From Clostridia bacterium (lineage in GTDB: Bacteria > Bacillota > Clostridia > Oscillospirales > CAG-382): DNA of 64,000 nt. Where the stretch lies: the NCBI GenBank assembly GCA_017399965.1, contig JAFQAP010000026.1, positions 1-64,000 of the forward strand, written 5' to 3'. The position numbers were made by a program, and so were the translations under genes. Positions 281-8,517 of this stretch are shown piece after piece. The notes below the pieces were generated by a model, which worked only from the letters and a program-made list of their open reading frames with translations, ran no database searches and had not been told where the DNA came from. Every line of letters starts with the position of its first letter. The stretch's first letter is position 1.

Positions 281-3200
281 TTAATTTGAAAATTGTTCTA
301 TGCCAAAACATTCTGCATGTATATAACCATCTAAAGGATTTCCTATATTATAACCGGGAAATGAGCCGACTGAAGCGCTTGCACTGAGTGCACTACCGAC
401 AAAGCTACAGACACCTTTTAACGCAGTAATTAATGCCGCACCAAAAAGAACATCGCAAACGATGTCGTGATTGTCCACATCATCATCTAAAGTATAAAAC
501 TCATGCGTGATACTTCCTGTAAGCTCATAATTGTCGTTGCGAATAGAAAAACTTAATCCAAATCCATTTTCGACAAACACCGTGTCAATTTGCACAGAAT
601 CATTATCGTATAGAGTTGAAGAAAAGGCGGTGAGAGCAACGTTAGTGCTGGTTAATTCAAATTCCAATTCTTCTCCATTAGGTGTTGTTATAGTAATACT
701 ATTTTTCATATCGTATTCAACAGTTATAGAGCCAAGCGCCACGGACGCTTCGGGCAGATTTGTGAGTACAACTTCTACTTGAAGTATTAAATATCCCCAA
801 GGTGTTTTAAAAGTTCTCTTTATATCAGCATTGTTATAGCCGTTTGAAAAGCATACAGGTGTCGTCGCCACTAAACCATTGTAATCAACGTACATAGCCG
901 GATTATTCAAGCAATACGCGAACATATTGTTTCCGAGAATACCTTGACCTGTGGAAGCGTAAGCATCTGCATTTATAAATCTACCAACTTCAGCATCATA
1001 GTAACGACTATTAAGATAGTACAGTCCTGTCTCGCTATCATAGTAATATCCTCTGTATCTGAACGGGTTTATCTGCCCAACAGTAGAGGCAAGGCTACCT
1101 GTTGTAGAAAGAATGTTACCCCAAGCATCGTAGGCATATTCAACTACAATTGCGCCGTTATTGGAATTTACAATACCTATAACATCGCCTTGCAAATTCT
1201 TTATATAGTGATATACAGTACCGTTGTATCTGAACGATGTTACTCCGCTTTCGTCGTAATAATACTCAAGAACAGTAGTAGAATCACCGTTAAACGCAGA
1301 AGAATACTGTATGGTTTCTTTAACTATAGTGCTTCCGTCAAGCACGTAACTATGGTCATACAAATATTGTTCGTTACCGTTGAACTCATACTTTCTTGTA
1401 CGGATACCGTCGGAATTATACGTATAATCAACAGTATGGTTGTTTGAGATAGTTATATTGTCTAATTCACGTCCGTCCCAAGAAAGAGAGGATATACCAA
1501 TCCAATTAGTAGGATTACCAATTCTATCATAGGAAATATTTGTACCGTTATAATTGGTAAGCAAATCTCCCCAAGCACTGTCGCTGTACGAATATGTTTC
1601 GGTTATCTCACCTAATACGGGATATACAGCCATCCAATGCGATACGTTAGGACCTGTGTTATCAAAGGTATATGTTTTAAGTATATTTCCGGCGTTATCG
1701 TATGCATATACGTATGCTTTGGAATTGAGTACATCGTCCTCGCGGATAAGCTGACCTAATGCATCGTATTCATACTCGGATATTAATACTCCGTCTTTTC
1801 TGACAGCGACAATATTACCAAGGTCATCATAAGTATATGAATACTCGTCGGTATCCAGCAATGTGTTGGTTCCGACATAGAGTTTTGATACTAATGAAGT
1901 GCCGTTTAAATACTCATAACTGTATGCATAAAGAGGATTGTATTTGGAAATAAGTCTATCAAAGCTATCATAGGAATAGGCAAATCCCATTTCCGGAGTG
2001 GTATAAGAGGATACAAGGTTAGTGTTTTCCTTGTAAGAAATATTGTAAGCACGGCTCACACCGTCTATTACATATTTGGAGCCTTTCGCCCTACCAAATT
2101 CATCATAAGAGTTCTCAACGGCAAATACGGTATTTCCGCTTGCATCCTTTTGGTAAGCACGGATAAGACGGTCAAGAGAATCGTATTCGTAAACATAGGT
2201 TAAGCCAGCCTTGCCGTCTACAGCTTTTGCAAGTCTGCCGTTGGAATCGTAGACAACGGTGAAAGCGTTTTCAGCACTTCCATTATACGTGACTTTTACT
2301 AATCTGTCAAGATTATCGTAGGTATATTCCTCATATTCGCCGTTGCCGTAGGTCATACGGGTAAGCTTGCCGTTGCCCGCTGTATAGGTGTAGGTTGCAA
2401 GAACGTTACTGCCCGCGGAAACGGATACCATATTACCAAAAGCGTCATAGGTAATGGTATACGCTGTTGTGGCGGTGTTTATGCCGGAAAGTCTGCCGGA
2501 TGCATAGAGGTACGCCACGCTGCTCTCGGTGGTATCGGCAGTTTCGTCCTTGTCTGCATCCAAGTAAACGGTGGTAACTCTGTCGCGGTTATCGTAAGAG
2601 TACGCGGTGCGGTTGTTGTTTGCATCCTGAATATACTTGAGCAGCTTTGTTACGCTGTCATAACCGTATGACGTTGTGCCGCCGAGAGAGTCGGTGGAGG
2701 ATTCCAGGAAGTTTCCGTTATCGGTATAGGTAGCGGAGGAAGAAATTATCTCACTCGTTACGCTGTTGGAAAGAACGCTTCCCGTTACGTTACCGTAATT
2801 ATTGTAGCTGTATGTAAGGGTCTGGGTAACGCCGTTTACGGTACGTACAGCGGTTTCGACATCGTGGGTGTTTATTCCGTTGATTTCTTTGTAGGTATAT
2901 TCGAAATCTCCGTTATTTATAGATTCGTAGGATTTCAAATCAACACCGTCGTAAAGCGCAGTGTCATTTTGTCCATAGATATCCGTAGCAGACTCAAGAT
3001 TGCCGTCGTCGTCATAAGCATAAGTTTGCGCAGGCTCGATGGTGAAGGAAATATCATCAAAATATGCGCTGTTGCAGTTGTAGTCATAGACAAAGGCGAC
3101 CTTTGCGGAGGTTACGGTTAGTTCTTTTTGGGGTACAACCGCGGCAGTAAGATATTGCCAGCCGGTGTTCTCGGGATTGAAGTCGGCGTAATGCTCTTCG

Positions 3201-6200
3201 GTGGTGTTATCGCTGTATGTCAGCGTTACGGACAGGCCAAAACGGCGATTACCGTGCAGGTCAACGGAGTTTGCTCTTGCCCAGCCGGAAACCATAAAGG
3301 TTGTGTTGGCGGGTACGTTAAGAGGAATGGTCTGGTATACGCTCTTTGCAGCGGATGCAGATCCGGTAACTGCACCGACGTGACCTCTTTCAAGCTCTGT
3401 ATCAAGCTCCGAGAAGGTGCCTTCCCAGTAATCCGAAGTGCGAACCGAGCTGTCCTGAATAAAGTTGTAGTCAGACTCTACTTCTGCTCTTTCAAGCTGA
3501 ACGTTATCGAAGTATGCGGTGCCTGTTGCAGAATCCAGACACATATATATAGTGTTTGCTCCTTCAAGAAGTTCTGCTGTAACACTAATACGCCGCCATC
3601 CGTTTTGAACGGTGGTATCTGTGGTTCCGGTCACGTATTCGCTCTTTGTATTTTTTAATTGAATATATGCACCGCCGGAAGAAGATACACCGGTTGTCTT
3701 TACATAAGCGGAAAGCGTATAGATGCCTTTTTCAGGTACGGTTACGCTTTGGGTTTTACAAACGTAACCCGTTGCCGAAGTGCGGTAAAGTTTTATGGAA
3801 TAGTTGCCAAAGAGTTTTTCTGCGCTTGAAAGAGCTGCAGAATAGCCCGAACCGGAATATTCTGTAGTCCATTCATCGACGGATTCACAATCGCCGTCCT
3901 TAATGAGATTTTCCGCAGTTATGCCTTTTACAGAGGAAACGGTAAGCTTGTTGTTGGTTTTCAAGCCTACGTCATTTTCGGTGTACTTTGCATAGGATGC
4001 GCCGTATACGTTGCCGTAATAGTCCTCGGTATAGGAGCATATGGCTCTGCCGTAATTATCAAACAAGGTTACGGTGTACAGGTCATCGGTATTGTCGTAA
4101 ATATCATCCTTACCGCTTGAACGTACGGAGAAATATTTATCCGCATACTCAAAGCCGATTTTCTGACCTTGAGAAGTGCCTACAGATTCCGCTACTGTGG
4201 CTACACGAAAGCCGTTGTATGTGTACGTTACGGTGTATCCCGTGTCGCTGTCGTAGGTGGACTTCAGCATGCCGTCGGAGTAATATTCGTATGTGCAGTA
4301 TTCGCCGGACGGGTATTCTATCTTGCGGAGATAGTTGTAATAGGTTTGGGCAATACTGCCGTTATACGTAGTGGAGTAATAGAAATTTACGCAATCGCTA
4401 GTGTCCTGCGCGTTGGTTATCTGCGCCAGCGTACCAACAGGGTTATATACGAAGGTAAGTTGGGTTATTTCGTAAGTGGTTCCTGCAGGAGTATATGTAA
4501 TAGATGTGAGTTTATTGCTTGTATTATATTTAAACTGCTTTTTGTTGCCGTATACGTCTTGGATTTTGGTTATACGGCCGTTTACAAATGTTTTTGTGTT
4601 TCCGTAATCATCGGCAAGCGTAGCGATCGTATCATTTTCTGTTTCAGTTACTGTAACCGTCAGTCCGTAACCGTCTTCACTTTTGTATACGTTGCCGGAT
4701 TTGTAGAAATACAAGTCAGTTCCGTCGGCATCGTTGTATCTGTAATATTCTACGCCGTCTATATTGGCAACAGAAAGCGTTTCCTGAACGCTTAATTTCC
4801 AACCCTTGCCCACAGGCATAGCGGTGTCGAATTCTTGCTGTTCATCGTCTACAGCAAGATAACTGTTGTAAACGTGACTTACTGTTATGGGGAGTATGGA
4901 ACCCTTGGTGGATATATCGTCGTGAACAAACACAAGGTTTCCGTTAAATCCGTTCACGTATCCCGTGCCGGCGCTTCCTGCACCGTGGGAAGAATATGTC
5001 CAGATACTCTCAAGACCTTTTGTATCACGATATTCAATGATCAGCAAAGGCTTGGGATAGGATTCGGAACTGTAAAAATATACGTGTCCAGTTCCGTTGC
5101 CGCTTATGGGTACCAATGCCACGCCGTGACAATTGTCGATATTATCTTGGGGATTATACCACTCTTGCGCAAGACGCGTAATGTCGAATTTTACGGTTTT
5201 AGTTACGTCTGCATCGTCAATAGATGCATAGTCCAAAATTTCATTGCCATAAGAAGGCTTGTTGTTCCAGGTTACCGTATATGAATTCCATTCCTGTGTA
5301 ATAGGTTTTGCAGCTATGTTAACCGAAGTGTAACCTACAGCATAAATGCCAAACTGCATATACGAGTTTACTACAACCGCAGATTCCGGAATATCGGGCA
5401 GCGATGCGGGCTCGATAAGAGTATGCCACTCTTTAGCGGTGCTTCCGTAGTAATATCCGGTAACTAACGTAGAGTTATTTACCGTGTTCTGATTAGGAGA
5501 ATTCTGGGAAATGTATGCATCTAATGTTTCCTGCATGCTGTTGAACGCTTCAACAGAAGGGTCAATCTTTACGGGAAATACTCTGTCATCGGAGTCAATC
5601 CACTCTGCATCTGCAGTTACGGTAAGAGTATATTTCTTGCCGTTTTTGTGTGCTATTGAGTAAGTAACACCATCAGACACAGCGTAGTTCGCATCGCTCA
5701 TTATACCTTTGGGGATAACAAGCTGTGTTTCTCCGGAATTTTCATCGTTAAGAGATATACTGCCGTCCTCATTAAGCACGGGAACAAGACCGTTAAGTTT
5801 AAGTTCAAAGGTGTATACATAGCTATCCTGTTTTTCCTTAACGATAATGTTTTCTTTTACGTTACTTCCGGAGATGATATATTCAAGGTCGGTACCGTCA
5901 AGTATATCCTTGTATATTGCACCGGAAGAAAACTTGGTTAATGTAGTTGCAGAATCAAGAGAATCATCATCCGCAACAGTTGTTTGGGGATAAAGCTCAA
6001 GGGCTTTGGATTTATTTGCATCGGGTAAAGACAAGCTTATCTTGTACCCGTTCATCTTGATTTTAAGTAAATTGCCGGAGTTGGAGTTGTTAGCAAGCTT
6101 AATGGATATGTTGGATTCGGACGTGCCGTATCCCGCTATATCTTCGCTGTCAACAGCATCGGAATAGGATAACGTGTTATCATAATCCTGCCAATCTCCG

Positions 6201-6472
6201 TTTTCATCGGAGTAATGGATAGGTTTACCGTAATCTGCTGCAACAAAGCTGCCGTCGGACATACGGAAGGTCTTGCTGCTCTCTGTACGAGAGTCGATAA
6301 CTTCACCGAGAACATACACGTCCCCGTCGGAGACAGGTACTGTTTCGGACTCATTGGTGAGTAAATCGTTCAACGCTTCACTTGTTTCGGCTAAAACTGA
6401 TTGCGGAATCGCACAGAAAAGCATAGCAAGGAAGAGAATCATTGCTGTTAATCTAATGGTTTTCTTTTTCAT
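281..6472 (-). CDS. Secreted DNRLRE / RHS-YD repeat protein (WapA-like polymorphic toxin candidate)
   Basis: The protein has 2063 residues and starts at an ATG preceded by AAGGAG. Residues 1-28 form a signal peptide ending VLAETS. A DNRLRE-type beta domain lies at about 306-480, YD repeats follow, two carbohydrate-binding-like jelly-roll modules lie at about 855-1150, and more YD repeats run to an RHS-associated core at about 1800-1866 (motifs YYYDSETGLYYLNSRYYD and GRFINADA). A unique tip of about 197 residues follows. RHS shells encapsulate and deliver variable C-terminal toxins. The tip contains a hydrophobic, small-residue-rich stretch and no nuclease motif that I can see. The downstream lipoprotein (1-266) and the WapI-like gene at 7749-8171 support a toxin/immunity locus. 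A host-binding adhesin is the alternative. Confidence 0.9.
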   Translation of the reverse strand: MKKKTIRLTAMILFLAMLFCAIPQSVLAETSEALNDLLTNESETVPVSDGDVYVLGEVIDSRTESSKTFRMSDGSFVAADYGKPIHYSDENGDWQDYDNTLSYSDAVDSEDIAGYGTSESNISIKLANNSNSGNLLKIKMNGYKISLSLPDANKSKALELYPQTTVADDDSLDSATTLTKFSSGAIYKDILDGTDLEYIISGSNVKENIIVKEKQDSYVYTFELKLNGLVPVLNEDGSISLNDENSGETQLVIPKGIMSDANYAVSDGVTYSIAHKNGKKYTLTVTADAEWIDSDDRVFPVKIDPSVEAFNSMQETLDAYISQNSPNQNTVNNSTLVTGYYYGSTAKEWHTLIEPASLPDIPESAVVVNSYMQFGIYAVGYTSVNIAAKPITQEWNSYTVTWNNKPSYGNEILDYASIDDADVTKTVKFDITRLAQEWYNPQDNIDNCHGVALVPISGNGTGHVYFYSSESYPKPLLIIEYRDTKGLESIWTYSSHGAGSAGTGYVNGFNGNLVFVHDDISTKGSILPITVSHVYNSYLAVDDEQQEFDTAMPVGKGWKLSVQETLSVANIDGVEYYRYNDADGTDLYFYKSGNVYKSEDGYGLTVTVTETENDTIATLADDYGNTKTFVNGRITKIQDVYGNKKQFKYNTSNKLTSITYTPAGTTYEITQLTFVYNPVGTLAQITNAQDTSDCVNFYYSTTYNGSIAQTYYNYLRKIEYPSGEYCTYEYYSDGMLKSTYDSDTGYTVTYTYNGFRVATVAESVGTSQGQKIGFEYADKYFSVRSSGKDDIYDNTDDLYTVTLFDNYGRAICSYTEDYYGNVYGASYAKYTENDVGLKTNNKLTVSSVKGITAENLIKDGDCESVDEWTTEYSGSGYSAALSSAEKLFGNYSIKLYRTSATGYVCKTQSVTVPEKGIYTLSAYVKTTGVSSSGGAYIQLKNTKSEYVTGTTDTTVQNGWRRISVTAELLEGANTIYMCLDSATGTAYFDNVQLERAEVESDYNFIQDSSVRTSDYWEGTFSELDTELERGHVGAVTGSASAAKSVYQTIPLNVPANTTFMVSGWARANSVDLHGNRRFGLSVTLTYSDNTTEEHYADFNPENTGWQYLTAAVVPQKELTVTSAKVAFVYDYNCNSAYFDDISFTIEPAQTYAYDDDGNLESATDIYGQNDTALYDGVDLKSYESINNGDFEYTYKEINGINTHDVETAVRTVNGVTQTLTYSYNNYGNVTGSVLSNSVTSEIISSSATYTDNGNFLESSTDSLGGTTSYGYDSVTKLLKYIQDANNNRTAYSYDNRDRVTTVYLDADKDETADTTESSVAYLYASGRLSGINTATTAYTITYDAFGNMVSVSAGSNVLATYTYTAGNGKLTRMTYGNGEYEEYTYDNLDRLVKVTYNGSAENAFTVVYDSNGRLAKAVDGKAGLTYVYEYDSLDRLIRAYQKDASGNTVFAVENSYDEFGRAKGSKYVIDGVSRAYNISYKENTNLVSSYTTPEMGFAYSYDSFDRLISKYNPLYAYSYEYLNGTSLVSKLYVGTNTLLDTDEYSYTYDDLGNIVAVRKDGVLISEYEYDALGQLIREDDVLNSKAYVYAYDNAGNILKTYTFDNTGPNVSHWMAVYPVLGEITETYSYSDSAWGDLLTNYNGTNISYDRIGNPTNWIGISSLSWDGRELDNITISNNHTVDYTYNSDGIRTRKYEFNGNEQYLYDHSYVLDGSTIVKETIQYSSAFNGDSTTVLEYYYDESGVTSFRYNGTVYHYIKNLQGDVIGIVNSNNGAIVVEYAYDAWGNILSTTGSLASTVGQINPFRYRGYYYDSETGLYYLNSRYYDAEVGRFINADAYASTGQGILGNNMFAYCLNNPAMYVDYNGLVATTPVCFSNGYNNADIKRTFKTPWGYLILQVEVVLTNLPEASVALGSITVEYDMKNSITITTPNGEELEFELTSTNVALTAFSSTLYDNDSVQIDTVFVENGFGLSFSIRNDNYELTGSITHEFYTLDDDVDNHDIVCDVLFGAALITALKGVCSFVGSALSASASVGSFPGYNIGNPLDGYIHAECFGIEQFSN

Positions 6473-7100: not shown

Positions 7101-7147
7101 CACTCCAAAACCGTTGGTCGTGGGTTCAAGTCCTACTGCCCCTGCCA
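7101..7147 (+). pseudogene. 3' fragment of a tRNA-Trp gene (att-like site)
   Basis: The sequence carries the anticodon loop CTCCAAA (anticodon CCA), the 3' half of the anticodon stem, the variable loop, a T arm with GGTTCAAGTCC and the acceptor strand ending CCCCTGCCA with an encoded CCA. The 5' half is missing: the bases before 7101 pair with the anticodon stem at only one position and no D arm is present. A tRNA 3' half next to unrelated DNA is the usual scar of a tyrosine-integrase element. A terminator hairpin follows directly, as it would after a real tRNA gene. Confidence 0.75.
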
Positions 7148-7152
7148 AGAAA

Positions 7153-7183
7153 AAAGCCATTCGCAAAAGCGAATGGCTTTTTT
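7153..7183 (+). terminator. Rho-independent terminator after the tRNA fragment
   Basis: AAAGCCATTCGC and GCGAATGGCTTT form a perfect 12-bp stem with an AAAA loop, followed by a T run. It probably belonged to the original tRNA transcription unit. Confidence 0.8.
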
Positions 7184-7188
7184 CAACT

Positions 7189-7351
7189 AAATCCGTCCTT
7201 GCGGACGGGATAAATCCACCTTCGGTGGATGAAATCACTTCGTGATGAAATCCGACTTCGTCGGGAGATTGGACGGATTTAATTTCATCTGAGGCGGTAC
7301 GCCGAAGATTTCATCCGAGCTCTGCTCGGATTTCATCGCGCGCAGCACGAT
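7189..7351. repeat. Multi-hairpin (cloverleaf-like) palindrome array
   Basis: Seven small palindromes follow one another: CCGTCC/GGACGG (7193-7208), ATCCACC/GGTGGAT (7214-7230), ATCAC/GTGAT (7234-7246), CCGAC/GTCGG (7252-7264), GGCG/CGCC (about 7293-7303), ATCCGAGC/GCTCGGAT (7313-7331) and an imperfect one at 7335-7351. Most have 3-nt loops, typically TTC. AAATCCGTCC (7189-7198) also pairs with GGACGGATTT (7271-7280), enclosing three hairpins. Spacers read GATGAAAT on the left half and ATTTCAT on the right half. The array ends directly at the promoter of the four-helix-bundle gene. Confidence 0.7.
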
Positions 7352-7355
7352 TTCA

Positions 7356-7384
7356 TTGACCATTTTGAGATTTTGTGATATAAT
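7356..7384 (+). promoter_or_regulatory. Promoter of the four-helix-bundle operon
   Basis: TTGACC (7356-7361) and TATAAT (7379-7384) are separated by 17 bp. The box lies between the hairpin array and the start codon at 7405. Confidence 0.75.
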
Positions 7385-7404
7385 AACCGAAAGAGGTGAT
7401 AATT

Positions 7405-7752
7405 ATGGCAGAAAATAAACTTGCAGATATGTCAACCGAATTTGCGGTGAAGATTTTGAATTTAACTGATGGTATCAAGGGTCATTATTCTTTAGCAAAC
7501 CAACTTGAAAGAAGTGGCACAAGCATCGGTGCGAATATTAGAGAAGCAAAATATGCTCACAGCAAAGCGGATTTCGTTGCTAAACTGCAGATATCCCTCA
7601 AAGAGTGCTACGAAACAGAGTATTGGATCGAAATTGCGCAAAAGGCAAATATCATTTCGGAAGATATTGCAAAAAGTGTGTTGCACGATTGCGGTTCTAT
7701 CCGCAGAATGCTAATTGCCTCCATCAACACGGCAAAGGAGAGCGTAAAATGA
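7405..7752 (+). CDS. Four-helix bundle protein (S23 / IVP family)
   Basis: The product is about 115 residues and starts at ATG 7405, with AGAGG 8 nt upstream. The heptad pattern and the segment LERSGTSIGANIREA, followed by F-x-x-K-L-x-I-S-L-K-E and a conserved E-x-x-Y-W, are typical of the four-helix-bundle family found in 23S rRNA intervening sequences. The Avd protein of diversity-generating retroelements is related. These proteins form pentameric barrels that bind nucleic acid, but their cellular role is generally unknown. The gene follows a hairpin array and overlaps the next gene by ATGA. No reverse transcriptase or variable repeat is nearby, so an Avd role is not supported. Confidence 0.9.
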   Translation: MAENKLADMSTEFAVKILNLTDGIKGHYSLANQLERSGTSIGANIREAKYAHSKADFVAKLQISLKECYETEYWIEIAQKANIISEDIAKSVLHDCGSIRRMLIASINTAKESVK

Positions 7753-8171
7753 ATAACACTATTTTATTGGAATGCGAAAACTTTAGTTTGTCATTAGATT
7801 TTCAAGTGTTTGAGTCTGACATCTCGTACTCCTCCAATACCATTTTATCGGTTTCTGTTTCCAGTGAAGGTTTTTCCGCATCTACAACAATGGACATTGA
7901 TATAAAAGATATACAGACTTTTTGCAATGAATTACAGAAAACATACGATTCCTTAAAAGGTGAGGCAAAAATTCAGGAACCTTACGGTAATCAACAGTAC
8001 ATTTTATTTACAGGAGATAAAAAAGGTCATATCTTTGTATCTGGTATGTTAAATTCCAACGGTGCAAACGGATTTTGGCAAGAGTTGAAATTTGAAAATT
8101 GCCTTGACCAAACATTTCTGCCACAATTTTTGAGAAAACTGACTGCATTGTCAAGTAAATATACGAAATAA
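7749..8171 (+). CDS. WapI-family-like immunity protein
   Basis: The product is 140 residues and its ATG overlaps the preceding stop (ATGA), so translation is probably coupled. The pattern resembles WapI-type immunity proteins: an N-terminal strand with LECENFSLSLDFQ, a central helical segment after DIDIKDIQTFCNEL, then a G-HIFVSG strand, and a terminal QELKFENCLDQTFLPQF motif like the LKFE..DQT/S.L signature. Such proteins neutralise WapA/RHS toxin tips. It lies 1.3 kb from the RHS gene on the opposite strand, so it may protect against a lost or foreign tip and not the present one. Family assignment is by pattern memory. Confidence 0.6.
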   Translation: MNNTILLECENFSLSLDFQVFESDISYSSNTILSVSVSSEGFSASTTMDIDIKDIQTFCNELQKTYDSLKGEAKIQEPYGNQQYILFTGDKKGHIFVSGMLNSNGANGFWQELKFENCLDQTFLPQFLRKLTALSSKYTK

Positions 8172-8198
8172 CTACATAGCATCGTTTGCAGGCATGGA

Positions 8199-8232
8199 GT
8201 TAAAAGTCCGGTAGACCGCGGATACTTTTAAC
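8199..8232. repeat. Inverted repeat downstream of the WapI-like gene
   Basis: GTTAAAAGT (8199-8207) and ACTTTTAAC (8224-8232) are perfect 9-bp arms around a GC-rich loop. The 430-bp gap 8172-8600 also holds a terminator and a promoter. I see no gene in it. Confidence 0.4.
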
Positions 8233-8336
8233 ACCCATCATCGCCAAGGGGCAAGTCTACCCACTGACAGAAAACCATGGATCGGTTTCAAAAAAACTTG
8301 CTCTGCGGATCTGTTTTGTAATGGTAACACATGTAG

Positions 8337-8372
8337 AAAACCCGCATGAATCCTTGATTCTTGCGGGTTTTT
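8337..8372 (+). terminator. Rho-independent terminator
   Basis: AAAACCCGCA and TGCGGGTTTT form a 10-bp stem with an inner GAATC/GATTC stem, followed by T-rich sequence. It ends the four-helix-bundle/WapI-like unit. Confidence 0.8.
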
Positions 8373-8517
8373 GCTTTTTCATTTTTCACGAGCAACGGTC
8401 CGCTAAATCCCACTTTGATGCTCAAATCGGGCATCATTTTCCCATCTGTTCCGCTCTGTTCTCAACCTTTCCGTTTACTACATCATCAAAAGAGCATCAA
8501 ATTATATTTTGAGGCTG

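Follow-up and report, generated by a model that had tools for sequence, protein, structure and literature searches.

A hairpin array and four-helix-bundle gene as a candidate mobile cassette behind tRNA genes of Clostridia

What does a dense array of small palindromes do directly in front of the gene for a small four-helix-bundle (4HB) protein? The locus that raises this question lies in a 64,000-nt stretch of a Clostridia bacterium genome (GenBank assembly GCA_017399965.1, contig JAFQAP010000026.1, positions 1 to 64,000), which was analyzed as a whole and is referred to here as the window. An earlier note on this DNA had described positions 7189-7752 as a compact mobile or structured-DNA element, with the palindromes as its substrate and the protein as its binder. 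We favor, with moderate confidence, the reading that array and 4HB gene form a mobile cassette that targets tRNA (and tmRNA) genes at their 3' end. Full copies consist of the array, the 4HB gene and often one overlapping cargo open reading frame (ORF), shorter copies are limited to a leading hairpin (hairpin 0), the array and a conserved tail, and copies can be stacked behind one tRNA. In the window, the order is hairpin 0, array, promoter, 4HB gene, ORF2 (the cargo ORF) and right end, with the following features:

7103-7147, + strand: insertion target, the 3' half of tRNA-Trp (anticodon loop through CCA); identical from CTCCAAA to CCA to the intact tRNA-Trp of genomes G001 and G002
7149-7184, + strand: hairpin 0, a symmetric terminator-like stem (GAAAAAAGCCATTCGC/GCGAATGGCTTTTTTC) that forms the element's left end and is absent from the empty site
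7189-7280, + strand: left half of the array, with hairpins 1-4, GATGAAAT words and an outer 10-bp stem; 7184-7256 corresponds to Rfam Gut-1 (RF01706); covariation
7281-7359, + strand: right half of the array, with hairpins 5-7 and mirrored ATTTCATC words; weak Gut-1 match on the - strand; covariation
7356-7384, + strand: sigma-70-like promoter TTGACC-17-TATAAT, 11/12 consensus matches, its -35 box formed by the array end
7405-7752, + strand: S23/4HB protein, 115 aa (PF05635, TIGR02436; Foldseek 2RLD, 2GSC)
7749-8171, + strand: cargo ORF2, 140 aa, WapI-like immunity family (PF24716), its start overlapping the 4HB stop (ATGA)
8172-8331, + strand: non-coding right end of the element, terminating in ..AACACA; the former sequence downstream of tRNA-Trp resumes at 8332 (TGTAGAAAACCC vs. 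CGCAGAAAACCC)
8337-8371, + strand: old tRNA-Trp terminator, displaced; it lies a few bases after the tRNA-Trp CCA in G001, G002 and G004

Insertion behind the tRNA end

The boundaries of the element follow from empty sites. In the congeners G001, G002 and G004, an intact tRNA-Trp gene is directly followed by a different terminator and flank, and this flank recurs in the window from 8332 (94% identity over 8335-8506), so that the inserted segment is 7148-8331 (1,184 bp). The unit proposed in the earlier note was thus made of real features but drawn too small, with hairpin 0 lying before it and a second ORF extending the element to 8331; nor did the note recognize the tRNA 3' end as target, the terminator-like hairpin in front, a cargo ORF or the Rfam Gut-1 label of one arm. 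A second target, tRNA-Val, behaves likewise: in G002, a similarly composed 1.0-kb insertion lies precisely between the CCA and the old terminator, with a spacer word, 4HB protein and cargo that all differ from those of the window, while G001 has the empty site and G000 holds a third kind of insertion. The targets also include tmRNA (locus L033). These alignments with empty sites show that the insertion point is directly after the CCA, that the tRNA is left intact and that the element brings its own terminator-like hairpin, pushing the old terminator outward. The ends are compatible with a duplication of CA at the target or with an element that itself ends in CA. Hairpin 0 is probably a real terminator for the tRNA; the 54 distinct hairpin-0 sequences, taken between the CCA end and the array, hold 887 Watson-Crick pairs, 8 GT and 1 AC.

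An alternative is that these sequences travelled passively as flanks of genomic islands that target tRNA genes, their link with tRNA ends arising as a by-product when islands integrate and decay. The window tRNA-Trp is indeed a 3' half broken in the anticodon loop, like island attachment sites, and another contig holds an intact tRNA-Trp whose array is 96% identical. We nevertheless hold this explanation to be very improbable, as the 1.0-1.2 kb insertions at tRNA-Val and tRNA-Trp have exact ends and no integrase (apart from the 4HB gene, the 1,184-bp insertion holds a single ORF with a family match), and as many isotypes and tmRNA are targeted with the tRNA left intact.

Several observations concern the surroundings of these tRNAs. 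ARAGORN finds no complete tRNA in the window; the intact tRNA-Trp that precedes the 96% identical array is on contig C30 of G000 (C30:1-281), and the pair of tRNA-Trp half and intact copy suggests an island in tRNA-Trp, possibly including the gene for a large RHS-repeat protein at 281-6472 on the - strand. This RHS gene is near the WapI-like immunity ORF (7749-8171, + strand), the latter lying within the mobile cassette. Directly left of the tRNA-Trp fragment is an 18-nt inverted repeat (7017-7034/7081-7098, 89%) with repeated AGCATCAA words. Finally, a second small palindromic insertion of ~80-100 nt, another tRNA-end element, occurs 3' of tRNA-Arg/tRNA-Ser at L090 (G000 C30), L110, L111 and L112, flanked by inverted and direct copies of the tRNA T-arm/3' end (GGGATTCGAACGGGTTGG..GAGAATTCGAATCCC).

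Array architecture and association with 4HB genes

Seven hairpins could be located in the array (7193-7208, 7214-7230, 7234-7246, 7252-7264, 7289-7307, 7313-7331 and 7335-7351), with loops of 3 nt in hairpins 2-7 and hairpin 1 as the exception, in agreement with the seven palindromes with mostly 3-nt loops of the earlier note. Its other architectural claims were borne out as well: the GATGAAATC spacers (7228, 7244) are mirrored around the center by GATTTCATC/G (7307, 7329, 7349), the outer 10-bp stem pairs 7189-7198 with 7271-7280 and covaries, and the array ends where the promoter begins, the -35 box (TTGACC, 7356-7361; the -10 box TATAAT is at 7379-7384) overlapping the last spacer. A comparable promoter, TTGAAA-17-TATAAT, is found at locus L034. 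Folding was stronger than that of shuffled sequences (z-scores of -5.3 as RNA, and of -3.8 and -4.5 as DNA of the + and - strand, respectively), and no shuffle equalled the array. In an alignment of 20 arrays (the window array and 19 homologues), the covariation score was 0.257, vs. 0.108 for shuffled and at most 0.067 for slid alignments. The 5' arm of hairpin 1 (7193-7198) covaries both with its own 3' arm and with its partner in the outer stem, making hairpin 1 and the outer stem competing, alternative pairings.

The 115-aa protein is confidently assigned to its family (PF05635, 23S_rRNA_IVP, 90.5 bits vs. a cut-off of 33.8; TIGR02436, 99.5 vs. 24), and its AlphaFold model is a confident four-helix bundle (pLDDT 94.9), for which the nearest solved structures are the S23-family proteins 2RLD (Foldseek E 4e-8) and 2GSC, followed by Avd at a TM-score of ~0.8. 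Scanning named genomes yielded 80 loci, nearly all of them metagenome assemblies of Clostridia / Oscillospiraceae, with many ruminants and deer among the source hosts. A strong mirrored array (mirror score of at least 3) was present upstream of 55 of the 78 related 4HB genes with enough 5' sequence, vs. 3 of 177 control genes, and the mean number of upstream hairpins was 5.8 vs. 1.3; in most of the eight lowest-scoring loci, half an array is still visible by eye. A same-strand tRNA ending within 600 nt 5' of the gene was found for 44 of 68 loci, comprising 13 isotypes, and for none of 164 controls. The cargoes vary between loci, with WapI-like, GNAT, DUF6678 and DUF4288 proteins among them, and in 17 of 79 homologous loci the cargo starts in an ATGA that overlaps the 4HB stop. 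When ten spacer-word classes were placed on the 4HB tree, 12 changes were needed (minimum 9, shuffled mean 42), in a test with few alignment columns and with near-copies that inflate clustering; judged from this tree, array word and 4HB protein are shown to co-diversify. We found no open-access paper (preprints excluded) linking 4HB genes with such arrays, except for heptamers in the Coxiella intervening sequence (IVS).

The arrays are far more widespread than the gene. The left arm matches Gut-1 (58.8 bits in cmscan at 7184-7256, above the Rfam gathering cut-off of 50), while the inverted right arm (7303-7386, - strand) gives a weak match of 32.9 bits, below the cut-off. Counting matches with E < 0.001, the window genome has 40, mostly without a 4HB gene; Gut-1 occurs in all five genomes of the genus, and, at the level of the family, in 39 of 50 genomes. 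Such solo copies far outnumber 4HB genes, and 6 of the 50 genomes have arrays with no 4HB gene detected. In G007, from another genus of the same family, five solo copies of 285-297 bp (pairwise 76-94% identical) sit behind tRNA-Gly, Tyr, Gln, Leu and Ser, some of them stacked; each starts directly after the CCA with hairpin 0 and terminates in ..TAGACA. At L209 (140-701), three solo elements stand in tandem behind one tRNA with a period of ~242 bp. The most similar solo copies also share hairpin 0, which thus moves with the copy, and as the target isotypes (and tmRNA) differ in sequence, the common target is the mature tRNA end. By their sequences, then, solo copies represent dispersal with a fixed target. 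Together with the empty sites and the arrays before most homologues, they bear out the proposal of a compact mobile element of palindromes and a 4HB gene: the array is not unique. Further copies of the array, for which the earlier note suggested a search, exist in this genome and in relatives; most stand without the gene, and array and gene as one obligate pair was rejected on this ground. The idea that the solo tail arose when the target's own tRNA 3' end was duplicated had to be dropped, since the tails are alike across different tRNAs; the tail may derive from a deleted 4HB gene. At L181 (~204-221), a solo-array tail seems joined to an internal part of a 4HB frame.

The abundance of solo copies also bears on a second alternative, in which an unrelated recombinase moves the solo arrays as repeats of the MITE or REPIN kind, and the 4HB gene is a passenger or local regulator. 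The excess of solo copies, the six genomes with arrays and no detected 4HB gene and the lack of a catalytic protein in the element would all fit. We still regard it as unlikely: the window genome has no Y1 transposase, spacer word and 4HB subtype switch together, and heptamer words precede 4HB genes in other phyla as well. More precisely, neither a Y1 (RAYT) transposase (PF01797) nor an RVT_1 reverse transcriptase (PF00078) was found in the window genome, which is 97.75% complete; integrases and other transposase families were not searched. RAYT- or reverse-transcriptase-based mobility was rejected on this basis.

Folded form, word arrays and a proposed mechanism

Rfam files Gut-1 as an RNA, and a 2010 paper placed it among noncoding RNAs, from environmental and human gut sequences only (Weinberg et al. 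2010, PMC2864571); no later literature was found among open-access papers (preprints excluded). A third alternative is that it is a functional noncoding or regulatory RNA, with the 4HB protein as its RNA-binding partner or under its regulation. The Rfam match above the cut-off, the strong covariation, the S23 relatives located inside rRNA and a fold like that of Avd, a ribonucleoprotein component of diversity-generating retroelements (DGRs), speak for such a role. The base pairs speak against it, however, as G-U pairs do not outnumber A-C mismatches: the 4,206 hairpin pairs include 42 GT and 47 AC, while tRNA stems of the same loci have 55 and 5 (Fisher p 8e-9). The loop type is moreover mirrored between strands, with GNA triloops in 65 of 97 cases on the - strand and 4 on the + strand in the left half, and in 41 of 72 cases on the + strand and 2 on the - strand in the right half, nearly all with a C-G closing pair. 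Loops of the type d(cGNAg) are unusually stable in DNA. In addition, the 4HB promoter lies downstream of the array, leaving the 4HB mRNA without it, and the Gut-1 model spans one arm only, with the inverted arm also matching weakly. An RNA function therefore seems to us improbable. Without a G-U excess and with strand-mirrored GNA loops, single-stranded-DNA hairpins, or palindromes perfected by copying, fit better than RNA on either strand; that the active form is folded single-stranded DNA is a tentative view, to which we give slightly less than an even chance.

Word arrays are not confined to the clade of the window. 4HB genes of cyanobacteria, Bacteroidota, Spirochaetota, viral contigs and across the phylum of the window are mostly preceded by 7-nt tandem repeats, as is S23 in the Coxiella IVS, where heptamers stand directly before the gene (PMC4990558). 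Requiring at least 15/21 matches at lag 7 within 130 nt before the start, we found such repeats before 29 of 39 4HB genes outside the window clade vs. 6 of 415 control genes (p 2e-31), with 0 or 1 at other lags. Of these distant genes, four lie within 23S rRNA and a fifth within RNase P RNA; at L259 (1229-2003), a 4HB gene with word repeats is inserted within the RNase P RNA gene. Two genomes have (AGGAGWC)n before a 4HB gene and the same word at several further places. The Bernardetia repeat is identical when read backwards, which makes a pattern control for it uninformative. Plain-heptamer forms also occur in the genus of the window, whose array may, from this resemblance, represent heptamers spaced out by hairpins. 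The suggestion that 4HB proteins are linked to rRNA intervening sequences is upheld in that S23 genes in 23S rRNA also follow word arrays, while a retroelement mechanism is unsupported, as a search of the genome found no RVT_1 reverse transcriptase.

How might such a cassette work? In the array the element would have its nucleic-acid handle, and the 4HB protein, which has no catalytic domain, would recognize a family-specific word presented several times; such binding is suggested by the co-diversification of word and protein. We think it fairly likely that the protein binds the words and also serves solo copies in trans, which would then be mobilized by the 4HB protein together with a host or resident recombinase. 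The array would probably act when its DNA becomes single-stranded, with the two halves folding on opposite strands. Solved relatives of the 4HB protein have five chains in the crystal, and the Xanthomonas S23 protein is described as a homopentameric toroid (PMC4990558). A pentameric ring with one word bound per subunit would be the simplest physical model. By supplying a new terminator behind a highly expressed RNA gene, the element would let the host gene keep working, in parallel to 23S rRNA intervening sequences, which escape via removal from the rRNA. More broadly, S23/4HB proteins across bacteria could be dedicated partners of short word arrays (7-nt, in places hairpin-separated), forming one superfamily of minimal mobile elements that parasitize structured-RNA genes rather than breaking them, at tRNA/tmRNA 3' ends, in 23S rRNA (the IVSs) and in RNase P RNA; we give this reading a little less than an even chance.

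Several points weigh against the mobile cassette and its proposed workings. Searches for Y1 transposase and reverse transcriptase genes turned up no strand-joining enzyme, and the assemblies are mostly fragmented metagenomes with many contig ends. The scarcity of G-U pairs could come from palindromes perfected by copying rather than from selection on folded DNA. Behind full copies, no match to the conserved solo-copy tail was found. Word-protein specificity is unproven by the tree, since word and protein are physically linked and co-inheritance is expected from linkage. Lastly, some array families (TGAAGT, TGAATT, TGATATT) are placed after protein genes, not tRNAs.

Among these families, TGAAGT and TGAATT arrays (L021, L069, L072, L077 and L047, L057, L192) have targets other than tRNA: TGAAGT arrays start at or just past the stop codons of protein genes, and TGAATT arrays lie behind an apparent rRNA methyltransferase gene, the end of whose coding sequence forms hairpin 0. 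TGATATT arrays (L064, L065, L070, L073, L082, L083) have a conserved leading hairpin (GCGAGACTTC..GAAGTCTCGC) and are not near tRNAs; several copies share a conserved 3' part (GGGTTTGGGCATAGCCC..GCATTTGTACTTACAAATGC).

Comparison with known systems

If the superfamily reading is true, the Gut-1 'RNA', many heptamer repeats of the short tandemly repeated repetitive (STRR) type and unexplained S23 reading frames would be explained together; heptamer repeats, the S23 protein of IVSs and the Gut-1 family are common, described orphans that have so far been without an assigned function. With many copies per genome, empty sites in close relatives, exact boundaries and one small protein, the spread of such insertions would be directly testable, if they are parts of one element type. 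If an insertion spares the tRNA and carries no obvious recombinase, its mobility mechanism would be new, or a host mechanism would be put to new use. The case is also a warning that covarying hairpins filed as an Rfam family can represent a DNA element.

The left arm resembles Gut-1 RNA (RF01706) in sequence and structure, and both are from gut bacteria, but Gut-1 is filed as a noncoding RNA, whereas here it forms a single arm of a mobile, DNA-like array that has two arms and lies behind tRNAs, next to a 4HB gene. The 23S rRNA IVS with an S23 ORF in Coxiella (PMC4990558) shares the protein family, a structured-RNA gene that stays functional after insertion and a short tandem word array (GACAGAT heptamers) directly before the S23 start. 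It lies within an rRNA helix, however, whereas the window element follows a tRNA-Trp 3' end and has a mirrored hairpin array, a cargo ORF, many solo copies and no terminal stem enclosing the gene. REPIN-RAYT systems and BIMEs (PMC3116915, PMC8266576) likewise comprise dispersed arrays of small palindromes, inverted pairs and one associated gene, with folded DNA likely relevant, but their protein is a Y1 (RAYT) transposase instead of a 4HB protein, and the target here is the tRNA 3' end. Cyanobacterial STRR heptamers are also dispersed 7-nt tandem words, and Planktothrix and Nostoc 4HB genes follow such words; they stand head-to-tail without hairpins between them and with no protein partner in the literature found, whereas the window words are hairpin-separated. 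DGR Avd (4DWL, 8UB7) has the same four-helix-bundle fold at ~10% sequence identity, and the window genome has no reverse transcriptase. The protein family and the Gut-1 label were already known, and what we propose as new is the type of element, or a variant of the IVSs if these are counted as the same type.
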